Shown piece after piece: positions 6,464 to 15,977 of a DNA stretch of 64,000 nt. Numbering within the stretch: the first letter of the stretch is position 1; each line of letters begins with the position of its first letter. Source of the stretch: Firmicutes bacterium HGW-Firmicutes-7 (GTDB lineage Bacteria > Bacillota > Clostridia > Lachnospirales > Vallitaleaceae); contig PGZO01000002.1 in assembly GCA_002841375.1 (NCBI GenBank), positions 1-64,000 of the forward strand, given 5' to 3'. Position numbers and translations under genes: made by a program. The notes beneath the pieces are model-generated. The model was not told where the DNA came from and did not search any database. It worked only from the letters and a program-made list of their open reading frames with translations.

Positions 6464-7711
6464 TTACACATCCTTATTGGCCATATTCCTCAAATCATGT
6501 CCAGCTGGTTTTTGAAAAATCCTAAGTCCAAATTGGGGTACTATGGCCAATATATGATCAAAAATATCTGATTGGATCATTTCATAGGTTTCCCATCCGA
6601 TCTCTTTGACAAAGACGTAGATCTCTAAGGGTAGCCCATTTTCAGTAGGTGATAATTGTCTTACTATTTGTACCATTCCATCATGTATCTTCGGATGATT
6701 CTTTAGGTAAGTTTCAATATACACTCTGAGTACCCCTATATTGGTTAAATGCCTGCCATTGATTAGCTTGGAGGTATCTATATCATTGACCAAATTGAAA
6801 TGTTTGATTTCTTCTGACTTGTCGTGAATATATTTCGTTAAGTAATGAATTTGCTCGAAGTCTTTTAACGAATCCTCTGTACAAAATGTTATTGAATTCA
6901 TATCAATGTAAATGGAACGTTTAATTCTTCTTCCTCCGGATTGTGTCATTCCACGCCAGTTCTTAAAAGAATCTGAAACCAATGCATAGGATGGTATGGT
7001 CGTTATGGTTTTATCAAAATTTTCTACCTTAACTGTATTGAGTGAAATATCAATGACATCTCCATCTGCGCCATACTTGGGCATTTCAATCCAGTCACCT
7101 ATTCGTACCATATCATTGGAGGATAGCTGTATACCAGCAACCAGTCCTAATATAGAGTCTTTAAATATCAGTAGTAAAACAGCGGATAAGGCACCAATTC
7201 CACTAAATAGCAGTACCGGACTTTTCCCAATAATTGTAGCAATAATAACAATACCTGCTACAATGTAAATAAAAATTTTGACTACTTGCAAATACCCCTT
7301 AATCGGCTTGTTCTTTGAACTTTCAAACGTTCTATATATATCATTAATTGCATTTAATAACGCATCTATAGCTGAAACACTAATAATGACAATATAACAC
7401 ATCGCTAGGTTTTGTAGAATAAATTCAATATAGGCGGAGAAAACAGGTGCAAAAGAATAAATCACAAGGGCTGGGACAATTCTAGAAAGTTTATGAAAAA
7501 CCTTTCTTTCTAAAATCACATCATCCCACTTCACTTTGTTATTAAGCATAAAATGTGATAATGCTTTCAATATCACTTTATTTGTAATGAGCCTACCAAT
7601 CAAGCTCAGCAAAAGTATAATTAAAAAGGTGATTGCAATGGCTAGGTAATCAGCGGCCCATTCTGCTATTTCATATTTCATAATTAGTTGACTAATTTTT
7701 TCAATCAACAC
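6464..7711 (-). CDS. MscS-family mechanosensitive ion channel (415 aa)
   Basis: Small-conductance mechanosensitive channel family. Several N-terminal transmembrane segments are followed by the conserved pore/beta-domain transition: GIGALSAVLLLIFKDSILGLVAGIQL, then MVRIGDWIEMPKYGADGDVIDISLNTVKVENFD. It resembles the YbdG/YnaI branch with an extended C-terminal domain (EIYVFVKEIGWETYEMIQSD). The start is placed at GTG 7711, preceded by AAAGGGGTATGC. The longer frame to 7762 adds residues without a ribosome site. It probably acts as an osmotic safety valve in the cytoplasmic membrane. Confidence 0.9.
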   Translation of the reverse strand: MLIEKISQLIMKYEIAEWAADYLAIAITFLIILLLSLIGRLITNKVILKALSHFMLNNKVKWDDVILERKVFHKLSRIVPALVIYSFAPVFSAYIEFILQNLAMCYIVIISVSAIDALLNAINDIYRTFESSKNKPIKGYLQVVKIFIYIVAGIVIIATIIGKSPVLLFSGIGALSAVLLLIFKDSILGLVAGIQLSSNDMVRIGDWIEMPKYGADGDVIDISLNTVKVENFDKTITTIPSYALVSDSFKNWRGMTQSGGRRIKRSIYIDMNSITFCTEDSLKDFEQIHYLTKYIHDKSEEIKHFNLVNDIDTSKLINGRHLTNIGVLRVYIETYLKNHPKIHDGMVQIVRQLSPTENGLPLEIYVFVKEIGWETYEMIQSDIFDHILAIVPQFGLRIFQKPAGHDLRNMANKDV

Positions 7712-8186: not shown

Positions 8187-9884
8187 TTATGTTAATTCCC
8201 TTTCTATTACTTCATCCAAGCTAAAATCTCCGTAATACTGATGGGCAATTCTAAGATTAACTGAATCATCACAACACTTGATTTTCATATTATTACTAGT
8301 GCTGACCACTTCTGCTTTTGAGATAATGTATCTTTGTACGCCAAGATTAATTTCCTTATTTAATAATAAAATAGGTTCAGAATCTTCAAATGAAAATTGG
8401 TAGATTCCCCCGACCATAAGTTCATTTATGTTTTCATTCAGAACAAAATTTCGGGTATATGGTTGTAAAGTCGTTTTACCAAGCTTAATCAAATTATATA
8501 TATGTTCTGTAACTTCAAAATCATAAAATGAAATTTTATCTGGCAAATCAAATGTAAAGCCAAGTTTTCTTTCAATGAATAATAGTTTTTTAAAATAGGA
8601 ACGATTCGATTGTATTTTGTCAACATCTAATTGTTTTGCATCATACCGAAATGGTAAATTTGCTGATACATCCCCTTTTGCAGATCGTATAACAAATGTA
8701 ACGTCACCGTTATGTAAAGCTAATTCTATTTCAAACCACTTAAGTATAGCTTCAACAGAATTACTTTTTTTATTGTCTATATTAATACTAGCATTCAAAA
8801 ATTCTACACCGACCTCATCATTGCTAATTACAAATTCAACTAAAATGCTATTCTCTTTCTGATGGCGATTTGAGAGAACCGTTTTTAGTAACCCCTTATC
8901 TGTATATCTTCGATCATAAGAAAATTCTACATTTTTAAGAATAAAATTCATTTCAGAATCATAAAAATCGACCGTTGATAAAATATCAGGAGTAGATGGA
9001 GAAATAGTCAATTGAGAATGGTATTTTTCATTATCTTTATGTTCATCTATAAAATTATCAATTATATGGACCATACCATAACTTGTAAAATCAAGAATTA
9101 TACTGTCTCCAGCTAGTACAGAATTAACTGTAATCTCATCGATAATTTTCCCTTTGCTAAAAACTTTATAACCAACTGCATTTAAAGTGACAGGACTTTG
9201 ATTTTCATCCACATAATTACAAATCTCCTCGATAGAATTAAATTTAGAAATAAGTTCTGTCTTCTGGACAATAAATTGCACTCTAATTTCACCTCTTGCG
9301 CTATTAATATAATAACGATTTTCTTTATTGTAATTAACTAAAGATGCTTTTAGCTTACTACCAACTGCATCATCTACATTGATATTTGATACGCTCTGAT
9401 GATCATGCATTTCATTTACAACATTAATGATTTCTTTAAGCATTTCATTACTCTCACTGCCTTGATCTATAATTTTGTTCATAATCGCATTTTGTAGTTT
9501 ATCTGATTTCACACTGTATGAATGATGTTGAATGGGAGCAAAAACTGGATCTTGTTTAATAGCCACATCTAACTTATCAATGAACCATTTTACTGCATCT
9601 TTAAAGTCAGGATCATATGAATTGAATAAATCATCACGAAAAATAATGTCAGCAACTAAATTATTAGGTTTAAATGCTTGTGTAATATTATTCTGAACCT
9701 CCTTAATATTCAGAAATGACTCAAATTGAATATCAAATATAGAACCATATTTTGTTTTCACATTGTCCAGTGCAATAGTTAAGCATAACTCAACTCTATT
9801 ACCAAAACTCACTTCGGAGAGTTGATCATAGAACTTACTGCTTATTAGATTAGTTATTATTGCTCCACTTAAAGTTGCTAACAT
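8187..9884 (-). CDS. Hypothetical protein of the accessory region (565 aa)
   Basis: I do not recognise this protein. It has one weak N-terminal hydrophobic stretch (MLATLSGAIITNLISS), then a mostly soluble alpha/beta sequence without cysteine clusters, P-loop, DDE or HD signatures. The C-terminal half is rich in beta-type strands (for example VGGIYQFSFEDSEPILLLN). The start is placed at ATG 9884, because AAGGAG lies seven bases before it. The upstream ATG at 9902 has no ribosome site of its own, and the apparent KRRDF motif of the longer form is just that ribosome site being translated. It lies downstream of an IS3-family element that separates it from the three membrane-protein genes. Confidence 0.75.
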   Translation of the reverse strand: MLATLSGAIITNLISSKFYDQLSEVSFGNRVELCLTIALDNVKTKYGSIFDIQFESFLNIKEVQNNITQAFKPNNLVADIIFRDDLFNSYDPDFKDAVKWFIDKLDVAIKQDPVFAPIQHHSYSVKSDKLQNAIMNKIIDQGSESNEMLKEIINVVNEMHDHQSVSNINVDDAVGSKLKASLVNYNKENRYYINSARGEIRVQFIVQKTELISKFNSIEEICNYVDENQSPVTLNAVGYKVFSKGKIIDEITVNSVLAGDSIILDFTSYGMVHIIDNFIDEHKDNEKYHSQLTISPSTPDILSTVDFYDSEMNFILKNVEFSYDRRYTDKGLLKTVLSNRHQKENSILVEFVISNDEVGVEFLNASINIDNKKSNSVEAILKWFEIELALHNGDVTFVIRSAKGDVSANLPFRYDAKQLDVDKIQSNRSYFKKLLFIERKLGFTFDLPDKISFYDFEVTEHIYNLIKLGKTTLQPYTRNFVLNENINELMVGGIYQFSFEDSEPILLLNKEINLGVQRYIISKAEVVSTSNNMKIKCCDDSVNLRIAHQYYGDFSLDEVIERELT

Positions 9885-10066
9885 AAAGTCTCTCCTTTTC
9901 ATTGTTAGAATTTATAACCGTATATTATAGCTTGCAAATATTGCATTTCTTTATATCGTCAAGTATGACAAAAATCATCTAATTAGAAGGTTCATAATTA
10001 ACATCACTACAAACTTGGATTGTCAACAGTTAACTAGACAACTTTTTTAAGGTGAATGTGTTTATA

Positions 10067-10702
10067 TTATAATGGTGTTAAATAATCCAAGGAAGAATGA
10101 ATTCTATGGTTATTAAACCAGTTGACATAATCTGACAATTCATATTTAAGCTCATCCAGATTATCAAATGTTTGTGATCTTACGAATTCGGTTATGATTA
10201 TTTTGAAGGTTGCTTCAGCTACTGCGTTATCATATGGACAACCTTTCATACTTAATGAACGATCAATATTGAATGCTTCTAGGGTTTCATCAATGAGCTG
10301 GTTTTTAAACTCATTACCTTTATCTGTATGGAAAATATTTATCTTCGACAGATTTGTTTTTACACTTGCAAAAGCTCTTGCGACAAGCTGGGAATCTTTG
10401 TTTCTTCCACTGCTAAATCCTATTACCTCACGGTTAAAGAGATAAGAGAGCCGCAATAATTATGGCACTCGAAAAATCAAAAAGGAACTTACTAAGAAAA
10501 ATCATATTGTTTCACGACGTCGAATTAGAAGAATCGTCAAACAAGAAGGCTTGGTTTCTAGCTGAAATATATTTTTGATAAATGTAACTAATTTATTTTC
10601 ATCGGGCTTTTGTTTAGCCTCATAATAATAAGTACTTCTTGGAAGGTTTAGGCCCTTGCACATTGCTGATACCGAGTATTTGTGAAGGTTGTTTTTAATC
10701 AC
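10067..10702 (-). pseudogene. IS3-family OrfB transposase, broken by an internal inversion
   Basis: The minus strand encodes the N-terminal part (KYSVSAMCKGLNLPRSTYYY, 10702 down to about 10562). It also encodes the integrase-core C-terminus (LFNREVIGFS, HTDKGNEF, NAVAEATFK, YVNWFNNHRIHSSLDYLTP, 10456-10067). Between them, about 10445-10562 encodes the middle motif NYGTRKIKKELTKKN and RRRIRRIVKQEGLVS on the plus strand. That part has been flipped, and the stretch that should join it to the core is absent. The DDE catalytic domain is therefore incomplete and the enzyme cannot be made as one chain. Confidence 0.85.
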
Positions 10703-10704
10703 AT

Positions 10705-11007
10705 TTACTTTCGTCCTAAGATCAGCGCTGCTTGCTTTAAAATATCATTCTCCATTAATAGTTGTTGGTTTTGCTTTCTAAGTTTTAGAAGTTCTTCTTG
10801 CTCAGGGGTTCGATTGTCTTTCTCTTTAAAAGAACCACTTGTTTCATCTTGATTGATCCATTTATCAAGCAAGGAATATGAGATATCGTATTCCTTAGTA
10901 ATATCGCATTTTCTCTTACCACTTTTGTAAAGCTGAACTATTTGGCTTTTGAATTCTGGTGTGTAGGTTCGTCTTGGCCTTGGCTTTTTTGATTGTGATT
11001 CAGTCAT
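10705..11007 (-). CDS. IS3-family OrfA, helix-turn-helix protein (100 aa)
   Basis: DNA-binding subunit of an IS3-type transposase. RPRRTYTPEFKSQIVQLY is the classic HTH_Tnp_1 opening, then ITKEYDISYSLLDKWINQ is the recognition helix. A C-terminal leucine zipper-like coil follows (EELLKLRKQNQQLLMENDIL). The reading frame is intact. In a working element it would be joined to OrfB by -1 frameshifting. Since OrfB is destroyed here, OrfA alone is probably non-functional for transposition. Confidence 0.9.
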   Translation of the reverse strand: MTESQSKKPRPRRTYTPEFKSQIVQLYKSGKRKCDITKEYDISYSLLDKWINQDETSGSFKEKDNRTPEQEELLKLRKQNQQLLMENDILKQAALILGRK

Positions 11008-11162: not shown

Positions 11163-11816
11163 TTAGATAGTACGATAAATATTAAATACTTGATGTAATG
11201 TAGCCAAGAACTGATCCCATCCAATGATGATAGTAATAATTGAGCTCATAATCCCAGCTAATGCTATAATAAATGTGAAAAGTTTAAAGAACCAGCTATG
11301 TCTAATTTTGGTGTAACTTCTATTGTTAATTAATCCCGACCAAAACAACAAATATATTGGGAAGGTAACAACTGATCGAATGCCTTCCCTCAGCCAGATA
11401 AATGGATTTTTAAGTTCTTTAATTGTAAAATCAATCAATCTTCCATTGTCACCTATTTGTTTAAGAATAGAATCTTGTGCAAGACAAATTTCTTCGCATT
11501 CAAGATCATTAGTTCTAATTTTAGGCACTGTATTAAGTAAAATTGGGTAATTACTAATATACTGTTTTACATAAGAAGGTTTAAAATCAATAAGACCATT
11601 ATGATACAATTCGCCTTGAATACGATTTAGATTTTGAATAAGCCACGAATAAATAGCAGAATCATAATTACCATTGAAAAGTGTATTTAATTTTTCAGCA
11701 TACTCAATGACGAATTTCTGTTTAGAATCGAGATCAAATTTATATTTTGCTATCTTTATAAAACCCAAAACAAATAGAATAACAAGGATAATAGCAATAA
11801 TCCACCTCTCATTCAT
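11163..11816 (-). CDS. Membrane protein of unknown function (217 aa)
   Basis: Third gene of a tight three-gene set. One N-terminal transmembrane segment (IIAIILVILFVLGFI) is followed by a soluble central part of about 110 residues and two or three hydrophobic segments near the C-terminus (SVVTFPIYLLFWSGLI and LFTFIIALAGIMSSIITIII). I see no catalytic motif and recognise no family. The start ATG is preceded by AAGGGGGAAATAAAATT. It starts 15 bases after its upstream neighbour, so translation is probably coupled to the other two membrane proteins. The IS3 element inserted about 95 bases beyond its stop codon. Confidence 0.72.
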   Translation of the reverse strand: MNERWIIAIILVILFVLGFIKIAKYKFDLDSKQKFVIEYAEKLNTLFNGNYDSAIYSWLIQNLNRIQGELYHNGLIDFKPSYVKQYISNYPILLNTVPKIRTNDLECEEICLAQDSILKQIGDNGRLIDFTIKELKNPFIWLREGIRSVVTFPIYLLFWSGLINNRSYTKIRHSWFFKLFTFIIALAGIMSSIITIIIGWDQFLATLHQVFNIYRTI

Positions 11817-11831
11817 AATTTTATTTCCCCC

Positions 11832-12554
11832 TTAAACTTTACTTTTATCATTTTTATAAATTGTACCATTTAGTTTAATGATACCTTTTAATTGAATATC
11901 ATCTAAGGTAGCAACAATTAGTGAATCAGATGTTTCATAACTTTCCTTATTACCAAGTAAATACGTATCCTTTCTAATAGTAGAAAGTAAATACCACTGC
12001 ACTTTATTTAATTCAATTGTAAAATCATTACCTTTTGACCGATCAATCAAAAAAGTAAGGATAATAAAAGCTAAAAATGATGCAAGCAATGTTATACCAA
12101 GTACTGCAAGAGCATTTTCTTCATTATTTACAGCAGTAAATTTTGCATAGGTAGGACTCACCATATAAATGAGTGATAGAAAACTCAGCAATATTGTAAT
12201 CGGCATGTATTTATCAAATATTATAAGTATTCTGAATGATTTAGTTCCATTATTTTTAGGAATTGCAGAAATAAAACCAATAAACCAGATCAAAATATAT
12301 TCAATACCACATATGCAAAAAGCTATTATAGCAATCCAATATAACCATATAAAATAAAGACCAGAAAATAAAAAGGCCCCAATTACCACTATACTCAAAA
12401 TTAAGACATATAAAATAAATCTATAAACAAAGTTTTCTTCCTTAGTAAATAATCTACGTTCAAGCCGATTTGAATTTGTAATAGATATAAATCCAGTTTT
12501 ATAGATAGTTGCTATTAACGCAACAAATGCTGATAATTGAGCAAATTTTTCCAC
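11832..12554 (-). CDS. Membrane protein of unknown function (240 aa)
   Basis: Middle gene of the three-gene membrane operon. There are about five or six hydrophobic segments, including LIATIYKTGFISI, FILYVLILSIVVIGAFLFSG, LYWIAIIAFCICGIEYILIW, ITILLSFLSLIYMV and LAVLGITLLASFLAFIILTF. A soluble C-terminal tail of about 70 residues follows (LNKVQWYLLSTIRKDTYLLG). It starts at GTG preceded by AAGGGGGAGTTGTT. The gap to the upstream gene is 17 bases. No known family is recognised. Confidence 0.72.
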   Translation of the reverse strand: MEKFAQLSAFVALIATIYKTGFISITNSNRLERRLFTKEENFVYRFILYVLILSIVVIGAFLFSGLYFIWLYWIAIIAFCICGIEYILIWFIGFISAIPKNNGTKSFRILIIFDKYMPITILLSFLSLIYMVSPTYAKFTAVNNEENALAVLGITLLASFLAFIILTFLIDRSKGNDFTIELNKVQWYLLSTIRKDTYLLGNKESYETSDSLIVATLDDIQLKGIIKLNGTIYKNDKSKV

Positions 12555-12571
12555 AACAACTCCCCCTTAAA

Positions 12572-13507
12572 TTAATAGCGTCTAACTATTCTTCTCAAAT
12601 ATTTGTTAAGTACATAACCACATTGAATTTCTCCATCTTTGAATTTAATAAAAGTCCATTTTTTATGTCTTGAATCTACTCTGACAACATTATCAAAATT
12701 TAGTTTTGAAATAACATTTGATTTATTTGAACAGGAGGAATGGACACTCAGCTCATCAATATTAACATACCTGTAATTGAGCAGAGTTGATTGATCAATA
12801 AGATTATCATCTAAATTATCCATACCATCATTTCCATTAATAGTAATGTTATATGTATAATTATTAATGATAGTTTTCTTATCTAATAAGACAGCATCAA
12901 GTGTAGTTTGAACCATATATGACAATAAAAAAATAATCAAGGTAAACAATATAGGATGTTTTAAATGAAATTCATTCATTTTTAACTGAATTTTTTCTTC
13001 AAAATTACGTGCTGATATATCAGAAAACACATTATTGAAATCAGAAATTCCACTTATTAACTCACTATCATCAATTTCTGAAATATTAACAGCATTCTCA
13101 TTAGAAACAATGGGTAGATATATAGAACTTAGCATATTAGAAAAATTAACTAAACTAGAAACATTAATGGCTTTCACAATTGAATTTATTTGGTCTATTC
13201 TATAATCTTTTAATGATATGGCAGCTTCCTGAACCGATTCAGAGAAGATATCAAAAGTGTTTTGCTTAAGCTTCATCGATAATAAAGAACCAAAAATATT
13301 AGGATCCGGAAAAATATAATTATTTTCCAATTGCTTTGCGAATATTTCCAAAGTATTATTCAATTCGAAGTTAGTTTTCAAAAGGTTAGATGTAGAGATA
13401 GTAAATGAATCAAAGAACTTTACATTGAGGTTATTCCATTTATGTATGGCATTTGAAAAATCCTCACCAATTTTCACATTCATTCTAAATTGATTGTTAT
13501 TATACAA
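12572..13507 (-). CDS. Single-pass protein with C-terminal SH3-like domain (311 aa)
   Basis: First gene of the three-gene set. Residues about 1-175 are helical and soluble. One transmembrane segment follows (HPILFTLIIFLLSYMV), then a short linker and a final 60-residue domain that resembles bacterial SH3. That domain starts RYVNIDELSVHSS, goes on with VISKLNFDNVVRVDS and WTFIKFKDGEIQCGYV, and ends NKYLRRI. Bacterial SH3 domains commonly bind peptides or cell wall. The start is placed at TTG 13507 because GGGAGGG lies six bases upstream. The frame opens slightly earlier, at 13525. Its overall function is unknown. Confidence 0.7.
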   Translation of the reverse strand: MYNNNQFRMNVKIGEDFSNAIHKWNNLNVKFFDSFTISTSNLLKTNFELNNTLEIFAKQLENNYIFPDPNIFGSLLSMKLKQNTFDIFSESVQEAAISLKDYRIDQINSIVKAINVSSLVNFSNMLSSIYLPIVSNENAVNISEIDDSELISGISDFNNVFSDISARNFEEKIQLKMNEFHLKHPILFTLIIFLLSYMVQTTLDAVLLDKKTIINNYTYNITINGNDGMDNLDDNLIDQSTLLNYRYVNIDELSVHSSCSNKSNVISKLNFDNVVRVDSRHKKWTFIKFKDGEIQCGYVLNKYLRRIVRRY

Positions 13508-13765
13508 AAATATCCCTCCCAACAAAAATTATTTAGATCTATTGTAACGCCGTTCATCGAGGTCATTTCTCTTTGCAAAAATGCGCTTAGCACTCTTTAA
13601 TTCAGACTGCTAACAAATAATATTCTATCATTAAAGAATTAACATGTCAATATATGGTGGCTGAAATGAAAATTCATTACAATATATAGTGGTTTATGTC
13701 GAAAAATAATGCTTATAGACCTATAGTTATTAGAGCACCTAACTCTTACACCTATTTATCATCAA

Positions 13766-13810: not shown

Positions 13811-13975
13811 TTAATTAATTGAATCTATAACAATCCAAAAACTAGCACTATCAGAGTCAATCTTATATTTAACATTACCAAGAACAGTCCAGTTTTTATA
13901 ACTATTAGCATATGATTGCATTTTTTCGATTTTTCCTATACCTAATTCATTAAACTGTTGTATACTGTTATACAT
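13811..13975 (-). CDS. Small hypothetical protein (54 aa)
   Basis: A 54-codon ORF starting MYNSIQQFNELGIG. The ATG at 13975 follows GAGGTGCTTTCTTT, a credible ribosome site. The longer frame to 14029 has none. The sequence is soluble, with no recognisable motif. It lies between the membrane operon and the IS4-family element. Confidence 0.5.
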   Translation of the reverse strand: MYNSIQQFNELGIGKIEKMQSYANSYKNWTVLGNVKYKIDSDSASFWIVIDSIN

Positions 13976-14243
13976 AAAGAAAGCACCTCTGTTGTTATTT
14001 TTTGGTCTTCGGAAAACTAATAATAACATAAAAGGAGCTTTCTTTTTTATTTTCTTTTTCCTACAATAACTTTACGCTAGCAGCCCTAAGGCCAATGTCA
14101 TTAAGTTAAGAACAATCAAAGAGTTTTGTGTGTATTAACACACCGGGCTCTTTTTTTTGTAATATTTCCAGAAAACACTTGACAAATCACTAAAAAAATG
14201 CGGCGAAGCCTCTTAAATATAGCATATTTAAGGAGGTTACCGT

Positions 14244-15553
14244 ATGAAAAAACATTTCATATCAGCTACAAGACGCTCGTTGTTTGACATTATTAGCTTA
14301 CTCAATAAAGACCCTTCACTTTTTGTTAAGAGTCCTGGGAAAGATTTTACCCGAAAGCGAAAACTGGATTTTGACACTTTTATAAAGTTCACACTAGGAA
14401 TGTCTGGTCGTTCAATGAACAAGGAAATACTGGATTTTTTTGACTTCTCAATTAAAGCTCCAAGCAATTCCGCATATAATCAACAACGCTCGAAAGTGCT
14501 TCCGAGGCTTTTGAATTCCTTTTTCACGAGTTCACATCAAGGATAAAGTTAAATTGTCATTTTCATGGGTATCGACTAATTGTTTGTGATGGAAGCAATA
14601 TTTCCATTGCCTCAAATCCTAAAGATACTGAAACGCGCGTACGATCCAACCAGTTTGACACCATTGTAAATCGACTACATTTAAATGCTTTCTATGATCT
14701 TATGAACCGCTCTTATTTAGATGTAGAAGTGCAAAATTGGGCAGATTACAGTGAGTTTTATGCGTGCAAGCAAATGATTGATCGCTCTCGGTTAGAAGAA
14801 AAGGTTATTCTTATTGCAGATCGAGGTTATGAAAATTATAACATTTTTGCTCATGTAGAAGAAAAAAATTGGGAATACCTCATCCGAGTGAAGGATATAG
14901 CTAGCAATGGGATTGTATCCGGACTAGGCATTACAGAAAAAGGAACTTTGGACAAGAATGTTTCACTTACTTTAACTCGTACACAGACGAAGGCAAAGAA
15001 AACAGAAGACTATAAATTTATGCCGACTTGTCAAGGGTTTGATTATATTCCTATAGGGAGCAAGAAGGAATACACCCTTCACTTTCGAGTTGTTTGATTT
15101 CCAATAGCTGATGGCTCATATGAAACTATTATTACTAATCTGGGAAAAGAAGAATTCTCTCCAGCGTATATTAAAGAAATGTACCATTTAAGATGGGGAA
15201 TTGAAACATCGTTTCGTGAACTTAAATACGCTGTTGGCTTAATAAATTTTCATGCAAAAAAAGTGGAATATATCAAGCAAGAAATATTTGCACGATTAAC
15301 GATGTATAACTATTGTGAAGAGATTATAACTCAAATCGTAGTTAAACAAACCAAAAAGACAAAAATATATCAAGTGAATTTCACTTTGGCCTTTTTCATC
15401 TGCCGAGAATACTTAAGCAATAAAAGGAAACTGAAACCACCTGATATAGTGCTACTGATTGAAAGAAACATCTTACCAATAAGGCCTGGGCGCCAAGACC
15501 CTCGCAAAGTCAATGTCCAGAAACCCGTAAGTTTTCTTTATCGAGTGGCATAA
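14244..15553 (+). pseudogene. IS4-family transposase, frameshifted and interrupted
   Basis: DDE transposase of the IS4 family. It starts MKKHFISATRRSLFDII behind AGGAGGTTACCGT. The catalytic surroundings are visible: VCDGSN, LIADRGYENYN, and the family signature Y-2-R-3-E-6-K in YHLRWGIETSFRELK. Two lesions break it. An apparent one-base deletion near 14503 shifts the frame where EAFEFLFHEF should follow VLPR. A TGA at 15095-15097 follows HFRVV, where an Arg codon is expected. The downstream frame resumes at FPIADGSYE. The product cannot be made whole, so the copy needs a transposase in trans. Confidence 0.9.
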
Positions 15554-15579
15554 TTCATATTTATTGTATCTCGAAAATT

Positions 15580-15603
15580 GACAGATGGCAATCTGTCTTT
15601 TTG
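15580..15603 (+). terminator. Terminator of the IS4-family transposase
   Basis: ACAGAT-GGCA-ATCTGT followed by CTTTTTGG, about 25 bases past the transposase stop codon and inside the element. Confidence 0.65.
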
Positions 15604-15722
15604 GTATGCCTTAAATTTTCCGTTTTCTCAAAAGAAAAGAATCCAAAACAGAAATCAGTTTATTTTCAGTCTTGGATTCTTCAAAAAATTTCTTAACTTA
15701 ATGACATTGCCCTAAGGCTTTT

Positions 15723-15977
15723 TTATCTCTCTACATCTAAGTAATCGTTATTTATATCCCAATCCACTGGATCTTCTATTACAATCTGACCGCTAAAAGA
15801 TACACATAAAGGTACTCTCGGGTGGTTCATATCGTAAATATAGCCAGTAAATGCTTGCGTTTCCCCTGATAAACTTATCGTTTTATTTTTGTAACTTGGT
15901 TCAGTATAGACTTTCGAATTACTACCACCGTACTCATCAGGAGTACTTGTTTCTTTAAAATATTTTTGACTATCCAT
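15723..15977 (-). CDS. Small hypothetical protein (84 aa)
   Basis: An 84-codon ORF, MDSQKYFKETSTPDEYGG to the end DINNDYLDVER, rich in polar and acidic residues and without hydrophobic segments. The ATG has no clear ribosome site (the preceding bases are GCCTACTATA), so the start or the gene itself is uncertain. It could be the tail of a larger lost gene. It lies just inside the rnpB-proximal edge of the accessory region. The IS4 element inserted into what was its 3' flank. Confidence 0.45.
   Translation of the reverse strand: MDSQKYFKETSTPDEYGGSNSKVYTEPSYKNKTISLSGETQAFTGYIYDMNHPRVPLCVSFSGQIVIEDPVDWDINNDYLDVER

Follow-up and report, generated by a model that had tools for sequence, protein, structure and literature searches.

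A run of three closely spaced membrane-protein genes in Firmicutes bacterium HGW-Firmicutes-7 raises the question of whether a tight operon represents one conserved system or a set of separately acquired genes, and what its members might do. The window analyzed was a stretch of 64,000 nucleotides, positions 1 to 64,000 of contig PGZO01000002.1. The features of the locus are as follows:

8187-9902, minus strand, AbiGii-like neighbor of 571 aa, on the same strand as the trio and beyond the IS3-type remnant
10067-11007, minus strand, decayed IS3-type element between gene 3 and the AbiGii-like gene
10067-10702, minus strand, IS3-type orfB (rve), broken
10705-11007, minus strand, IS3-type orfA (HTH_Tnp_1)
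11163-11816, minus strand, gene 3, ATG start, 217 aa
11832-12554, minus strand, gene 2, GTG start, 240 aa
12572-13507, minus strand, gene 1, TTG start, 311 aa
13622-13650, minus strand, promoter-like site TTGACA-17-TAGAAT with extended TG (11/12 matches), upstream of gene 1
14085-15717, plus strand, decayed IS4-type element with 28-bp terminal inverted repeats

The preliminary description of this DNA reported a co-directional trio with gaps of 15 and 17 bases, TTG, GTG and ATG starts and strong ribosome sites. All of this was confirmed, on the minus strand. Genes 1 and 2 are separated by 17 bases and genes 2 and 3 by 15 bases. The Shine-Dalgarno sites are purine-rich, with GGGAGGG preceding gene 1, AAGGGGGAG preceding gene 2 and AAGGGGGAAA preceding gene 3. 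An alternative in-frame TTG for gene 1 is present at 13525; GGGAGG lies between the two TTG codons, making 13507 the better start. When the region was simulated 500 times using a first-order Markov model, the longest chance ORF had a mean of 65 aa and a maximum of 125 aa, so ORFs of 217 to 311 aa are not due to chance. All three are genuine co-directional membrane-protein genes. The promoter-like site is located approximately 115 bases upstream of gene 1, and the frequency of such sites in the region was not above that in shuffled sequence. The trio is probably co-transcribed in this genome, yet its members are probably not obligate partners.

The GC content of the trio region is 26-29% compared to 33% across the window. 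The decayed IS3-type element flanks the trio on one side and the decayed IS4-type element, whose transposase (14244-15553) is split in three frames, on the other. The outer flanks consist of ordinary chromosomal genes, MscS and DUF4349 on one side and TerC and a Na/Ca exchanger on the other. The trio thus occupies a small accessory segment with a decayed IS element on each side. The accessory location proposed from the sequence was borne out by both the low GC content and the flanking elements. Synteny with the only other genome of the genus was uninformative, the flanking genes there being on different contigs. Short ORFs on the minus strand at 13811-14029 and 15723-15977 stand on either side of the IS4-type element and may be remnants of genes which predate its insertion.

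The IS3-type remnant occupies the upstream side of the AbiGii-like neighbor. Residues 369-526 of this protein matched the PADLOC model of AbiGii (E 3.8e-10), a weak match covering 158 of 571 residues. No relatives of the neighbor were found across 392 genomes of the order. An ATG at 9884, approximately 18 bases inside the ORF and preceded by AAAAGGAGA, may be a better start.

Each protein of the trio was searched against approximately 390 genomes of the order. In addition, 179 genomes of the phylum were searched with one family model and pattern scans of viral contigs were carried out. For gene 3 the search was extended to another 159 genomes, and a single pattern scan covered 84,980 genomes. 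Scans of Pfam, NCBIfam, PADLOC and PHROG assigned no named family to any member of the trio, and PADLOC-DB 2.0 profiles did not match genes 1-3 at E values up to 1. The preliminary description had recognized none of the three families, and the profile scans in these four libraries likewise gave no name.

Gene 1 encodes a helical N-terminal region of approximately 185 residues, one clear TM helix by hydropathy (190-208), an Asn/Tyr-rich linker and a C-terminal SH3_3-type domain (252-304). The SH3_3 match (PF08239) in gene 1 had an E value of 0.003 and a score of 18.2 bits, under the curated cut-off of 27 bits. Two of its homologues scored higher, at 32.6 bits (L007, above the cut-off) and 25.2 bits (L003). 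The SH3 assignment is plausible for gene 1 because homologue L007 passes the cut-off. The earlier picture of a single-pass protein with a C-terminal SH3-like domain fits these results, with the domain weak in gene 1 itself. PHROG 23259 aligned to residues 91-306 of gene 1 over positions 46-254 of 256 (E 1e-7), and tblastn of the phage records in the collection detected no relative. The predicted fold of gene 1 alone was uninformative (pLDDT 33). The single TM helix and C-terminal SH3-type domain suggest that the protein spans the membrane and touches the wall. In this predicted topology gene 1 would be an envelope protein whose helical part is cytoplasmic and whose SH3b-type domain faces the wall through one TM helix. 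The SH3b domain of lysostaphin is described as anchoring that enzyme to peptidoglycan (PMC6461655).

The relatives of gene 1 are few, distant and in unrelated surroundings. Those sharing its domain plan of helical N-terminus, one TM helix and SH3-type domain are L003, L004/L005, L007 and L072. L007 is a conjugative Advenella plasmid and L072 a mobilizable Priestia plasmid. The Priestia homologue (6503-7687) carries an N-terminal repeat of approximately 20 residues, PSVLETVRNARIDIQSYIM. An SRAP/YedK-type gene adjoins the gene 1 homologues in two unrelated settings (L004 844-2073, L005 1231-2460, L007 4596-6207). It was rejected as a functional link to gene 1, its orientation differing between L004/L005 and L007. 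In a further locus (L031 4995-5747 and 6083-7093) a gene 1 homologue lies in an exopolysaccharide cluster, near apparent FRG-domain and RhuM-like genes. Genes of these two types are frequent near defence genes. Matches to gene 1 in genomes G542 and G546 based on phrog_23259 were discarded as unclear, or as SH3-type matches standing alone.

Gene 2 has five TM helices by hydropathy (7-25, 46-64, 74-92, 109-127 and 148-166), in line with the five or six passes first proposed, and a soluble C-terminal tail of approximately 70 residues. No credible relative was found in the approximately 390 genomes of the order or in the seven genomes carrying gene 3. Matches in the order genomes had E values of 6e-4 to 7e-3; the three loci read appear to encode unrelated proteins (a CPBP-type protease, an ion channel and a flagellin), and several other matches contained stops. 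Gene 2 would be a multi-pass membrane protein belonging to the same cargo as gene 1.

Gene 3 has two clear TM helices by hydropathy (5-23 and 180-198) and one weak (145-163). It is a membrane protein as described, although the three or four passes attributed to it were a slightly high count. The protein is all-helical, with an N-terminal TM helix, a central helical bundle, a conserved stretch of the form NP...G...P..L..W.G and a C-terminal TM helix. Homologues were found at ten other distinct loci with 27-34% identity. The 12 invariant positions of the family are kept in gene 3, including N137-P138, G145, P153, W159 and G161. The structure model had a pLDDT of 73 and a pTM of 0.56, and Foldseek searches with it returned nothing below E 0.25 against the PDB or 0.47 against viral models. 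A likeness to the NarQ sensor bundle (VIA-align Z 8.4, rmsd 2.9 over 124 residues) was set aside, such values being common among unrelated helical bundles. No relative of gene 3 was found in viral contigs or phage records, an unexpected outcome for a prophage gene.

The settings of the gene 3 homologues are as follows:

L023, Oceanobacillus: 31 bases downstream of a DUF4379/DUF559 gene, itself after a TdeIII-type R-M pair
L071: a further copy from the Oceanobacillus genome, with an HsdR fragment close by
L024, Tissierella: MBL and trypsin genes resembling Avs1, and an Avs2-like NTPase, close by
L022, Paenibacillus: near a type IV restriction gene
L027/L021 (L021 1005-2160), Clostridia: one base after an HTH gene, with an AIPR/AbiU gene 1.2 kb away
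L025 (6500-7655), Ruminococcus, Clostridia: next to a tyrosine integrase and closely paired with an HTH regulator, as in L027/L021
L070: follows a serine recombinase related to YokA of SPbeta, at a distance of 95-119 bases
L069: near a phage-type gene
L018/L026: Aneurinibacillus megaplasmid with no recognized defence system
L020/L030: between AgrC- and AgrB-like genes

The HTH regulator paired with gene 3 homologues in the two Clostridia genomes (L021 and L025) is 156 aa in length. The gene 3 family is a rare and unnamed family of all-helical membrane proteins found in integrated elements, plasmids and defence islands of Bacillota with varying partners.

The partners of gene 3 in the window were absent from these settings. 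Genes 1 and 2 gave no significant tblastn match at any of the ten other gene 3 loci. Whole-genome searches of seven gene 3 genomes (G057, G214 and G568-G572, with G573 being the same genome as G214) gave no significant gene 1 and only spurious matches to gene 2. For gene 1 the top match had an E value of 0.03 and covered the SH3-type stretch of a frame of 628 residues; for gene 2 it had an E value of 2.5e-4 and crossed four stop codons. The gene 1 relatives L003, L004/L005, L007 and L072 stand without gene 3. A compact complex of three membrane proteins had been suggested for the locus. This suggestion was not supported, as the trio co-occurs nowhere else within the genomes searched. With no sign of a conserved three-gene system, the trio is taken to be cargo genes brought together locally. 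Three genes can be tightly packed in one operon without making up a conserved system; the members of this one seem to move independently.

Restriction, Avs-like or AIPR/AbiU genes were located within 7 kb at five of the ten gene 3 homologue loci. A PADLOC scan of 87 neighboring ORFs from the first seven loci gave R-M, Avs1, AbiU and type IV matches. The 113 control ORFs, taken from ten regions of five of the same genomes and not matched for mobile context, matched generic models only (kinases, AAA ATPases, an exonuclease and TRIP13-type ATPases). Dedicated defence genes were present at 4/7 gene 3 loci compared to 0/10 controls (one-sided Fisher P 0.015), a small and partly post hoc comparison. 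The same test gave P 0.06 when one control match was counted as defence. As the controls were unmatched for mobile context, any mobile cargo gene would show some defence enrichment. The preliminary description had regarded the trio as a complex on mobile DNA of the kind typical of defence, toxin or transport modules, and had asked whether homologues cluster with known defence genes. The mobile DNA was upheld and such clustering was seen for gene 3, at several of its homologues; the complex was not upheld.

The three genes are best regarded as independently acquired cargo; for gene 3 the likeliest role is phage exclusion or abortive infection from within the envelope. This reading is drawn from genomic context by analogy and is held tentatively, at somewhat below even confidence. 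Gene 3 would work on its own, in the cytoplasmic membrane, to exclude phages or abort infection. On the model of the Sie proteins of lactococcal prophages it would keep phage DNA from entering; alternatively, it would damage the membrane upon infection. The mobile and defence settings of the gene 3 homologues and the AbiGii-like neighbor in the window were counted toward a phage role. Counted against it were the agr-type setting (L020/L030), the megaplasmid locus with no recognized defence system, the uninformative fold, the weak AbiGii match with no AbiGi seen, the small neighborhood comparison, and the fact that Pfam, NCBIfam and PADLOC gave gene 3 no name and viral contigs and phage records gave it no relative. 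A bolder proposal is that gene 3 founds a new single-gene membrane anti-phage family, borne by recombinase-associated elements and defence islands and sometimes paired with an HTH regulator, and placed here in a new operon with SH3-bearing and multi-pass partners. Taken as a whole this proposal is speculative and rather unlikely.

Mobile cargo with a role other than defence is a possible, if somewhat unlikely, explanation. The genes could serve in peptide-toxin immunity, in an envelope stress response or in maintenance of the element (entry exclusion). The gene 3 homologue flanked by AgrC- and AgrB-like genes in one genome, the pairing with an HTH regulator in two genomes, and the gene 1 homologues on one conjugative and one mobilizable plasmid would fit such roles. 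However, no toxin or bacteriocin gene was recognized adjoining gene 3 homologues in the loci read, and restriction or abortive-infection genes are the commoner context of gene 3.

The genes may also be passengers trapped between dead insertion sequences and with no present function. Both IS elements are broken, the IS4-type element is flanked by remnant-like short ORFs, and the sequence is AT-rich. Against this, the three frames are intact with strong ribosome sites and gene 3 retains the invariant residues of its family, and this explanation is considered unlikely.

A rare defence or transport complex, with the SH3 domain of gene 1 as wall sensor passing a signal across the membrane to a multi-pass effector (gene 2) together with gene 3, would suit the short gaps, strong Shine-Dalgarno sites, promoter-like site and membrane character of all three proteins, but is quite improbable given that 0/10 other gene 3 loci have gene 1 or gene 2, that the seven gene 3 genomes contain no significant copy of either, and that the four groups of gene 1 relatives occur without gene 3.

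The reading of the trio as independently acquired cargo, with gene 3 as a candidate phage-exclusion protein, can be compared to several known types of system. Like SH3_3 proteins (PF08239), gene 1 has a C-terminus which matches the domain over nearly its whole length. Its own score, however, is under the curated cut-off, no hydrolase domain was found in it, and its N-terminus is a helical region not described before, followed by a TM helix. Gene 1 also aligned over most of PHROG 23259, a family itself annotated as of unknown function. The likeness to AbiG lies in the 571-aa neighbor, which matches AbiGii in its C-terminal part (E 3.8e-10). This AbiGii-like gene is outside the trio, however, and AbiGi was not found among the genes tested.

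A further comparison is with Sie2009, a small membrane-associated phage-exclusion protein (PMC7693887). The sie genes of lactococcal prophages are found in lysogeny modules and can sit between integrase and repressor genes (PMC7693887). Gene 3 is similarly a small membrane-anchored single protein (217 aa, two clear TM helices), and a recombinase or integrase adjoins its homologues at L070 and L025, whereas the copy in the window lies between IS remnants. Gene 3 differs from the Sie2009 type in that TM helices at its two ends enclose a central helical bundle, and in that its family occurs not just in prophage-like elements but also in defence islands. The resemblance is regarded as an analogy of anatomy and of some homologue positions, and not as homology. 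Should gene 3 prove active against phages, a small membrane family would join the exclusion proteins, a class known mostly from lactic acid bacteria.
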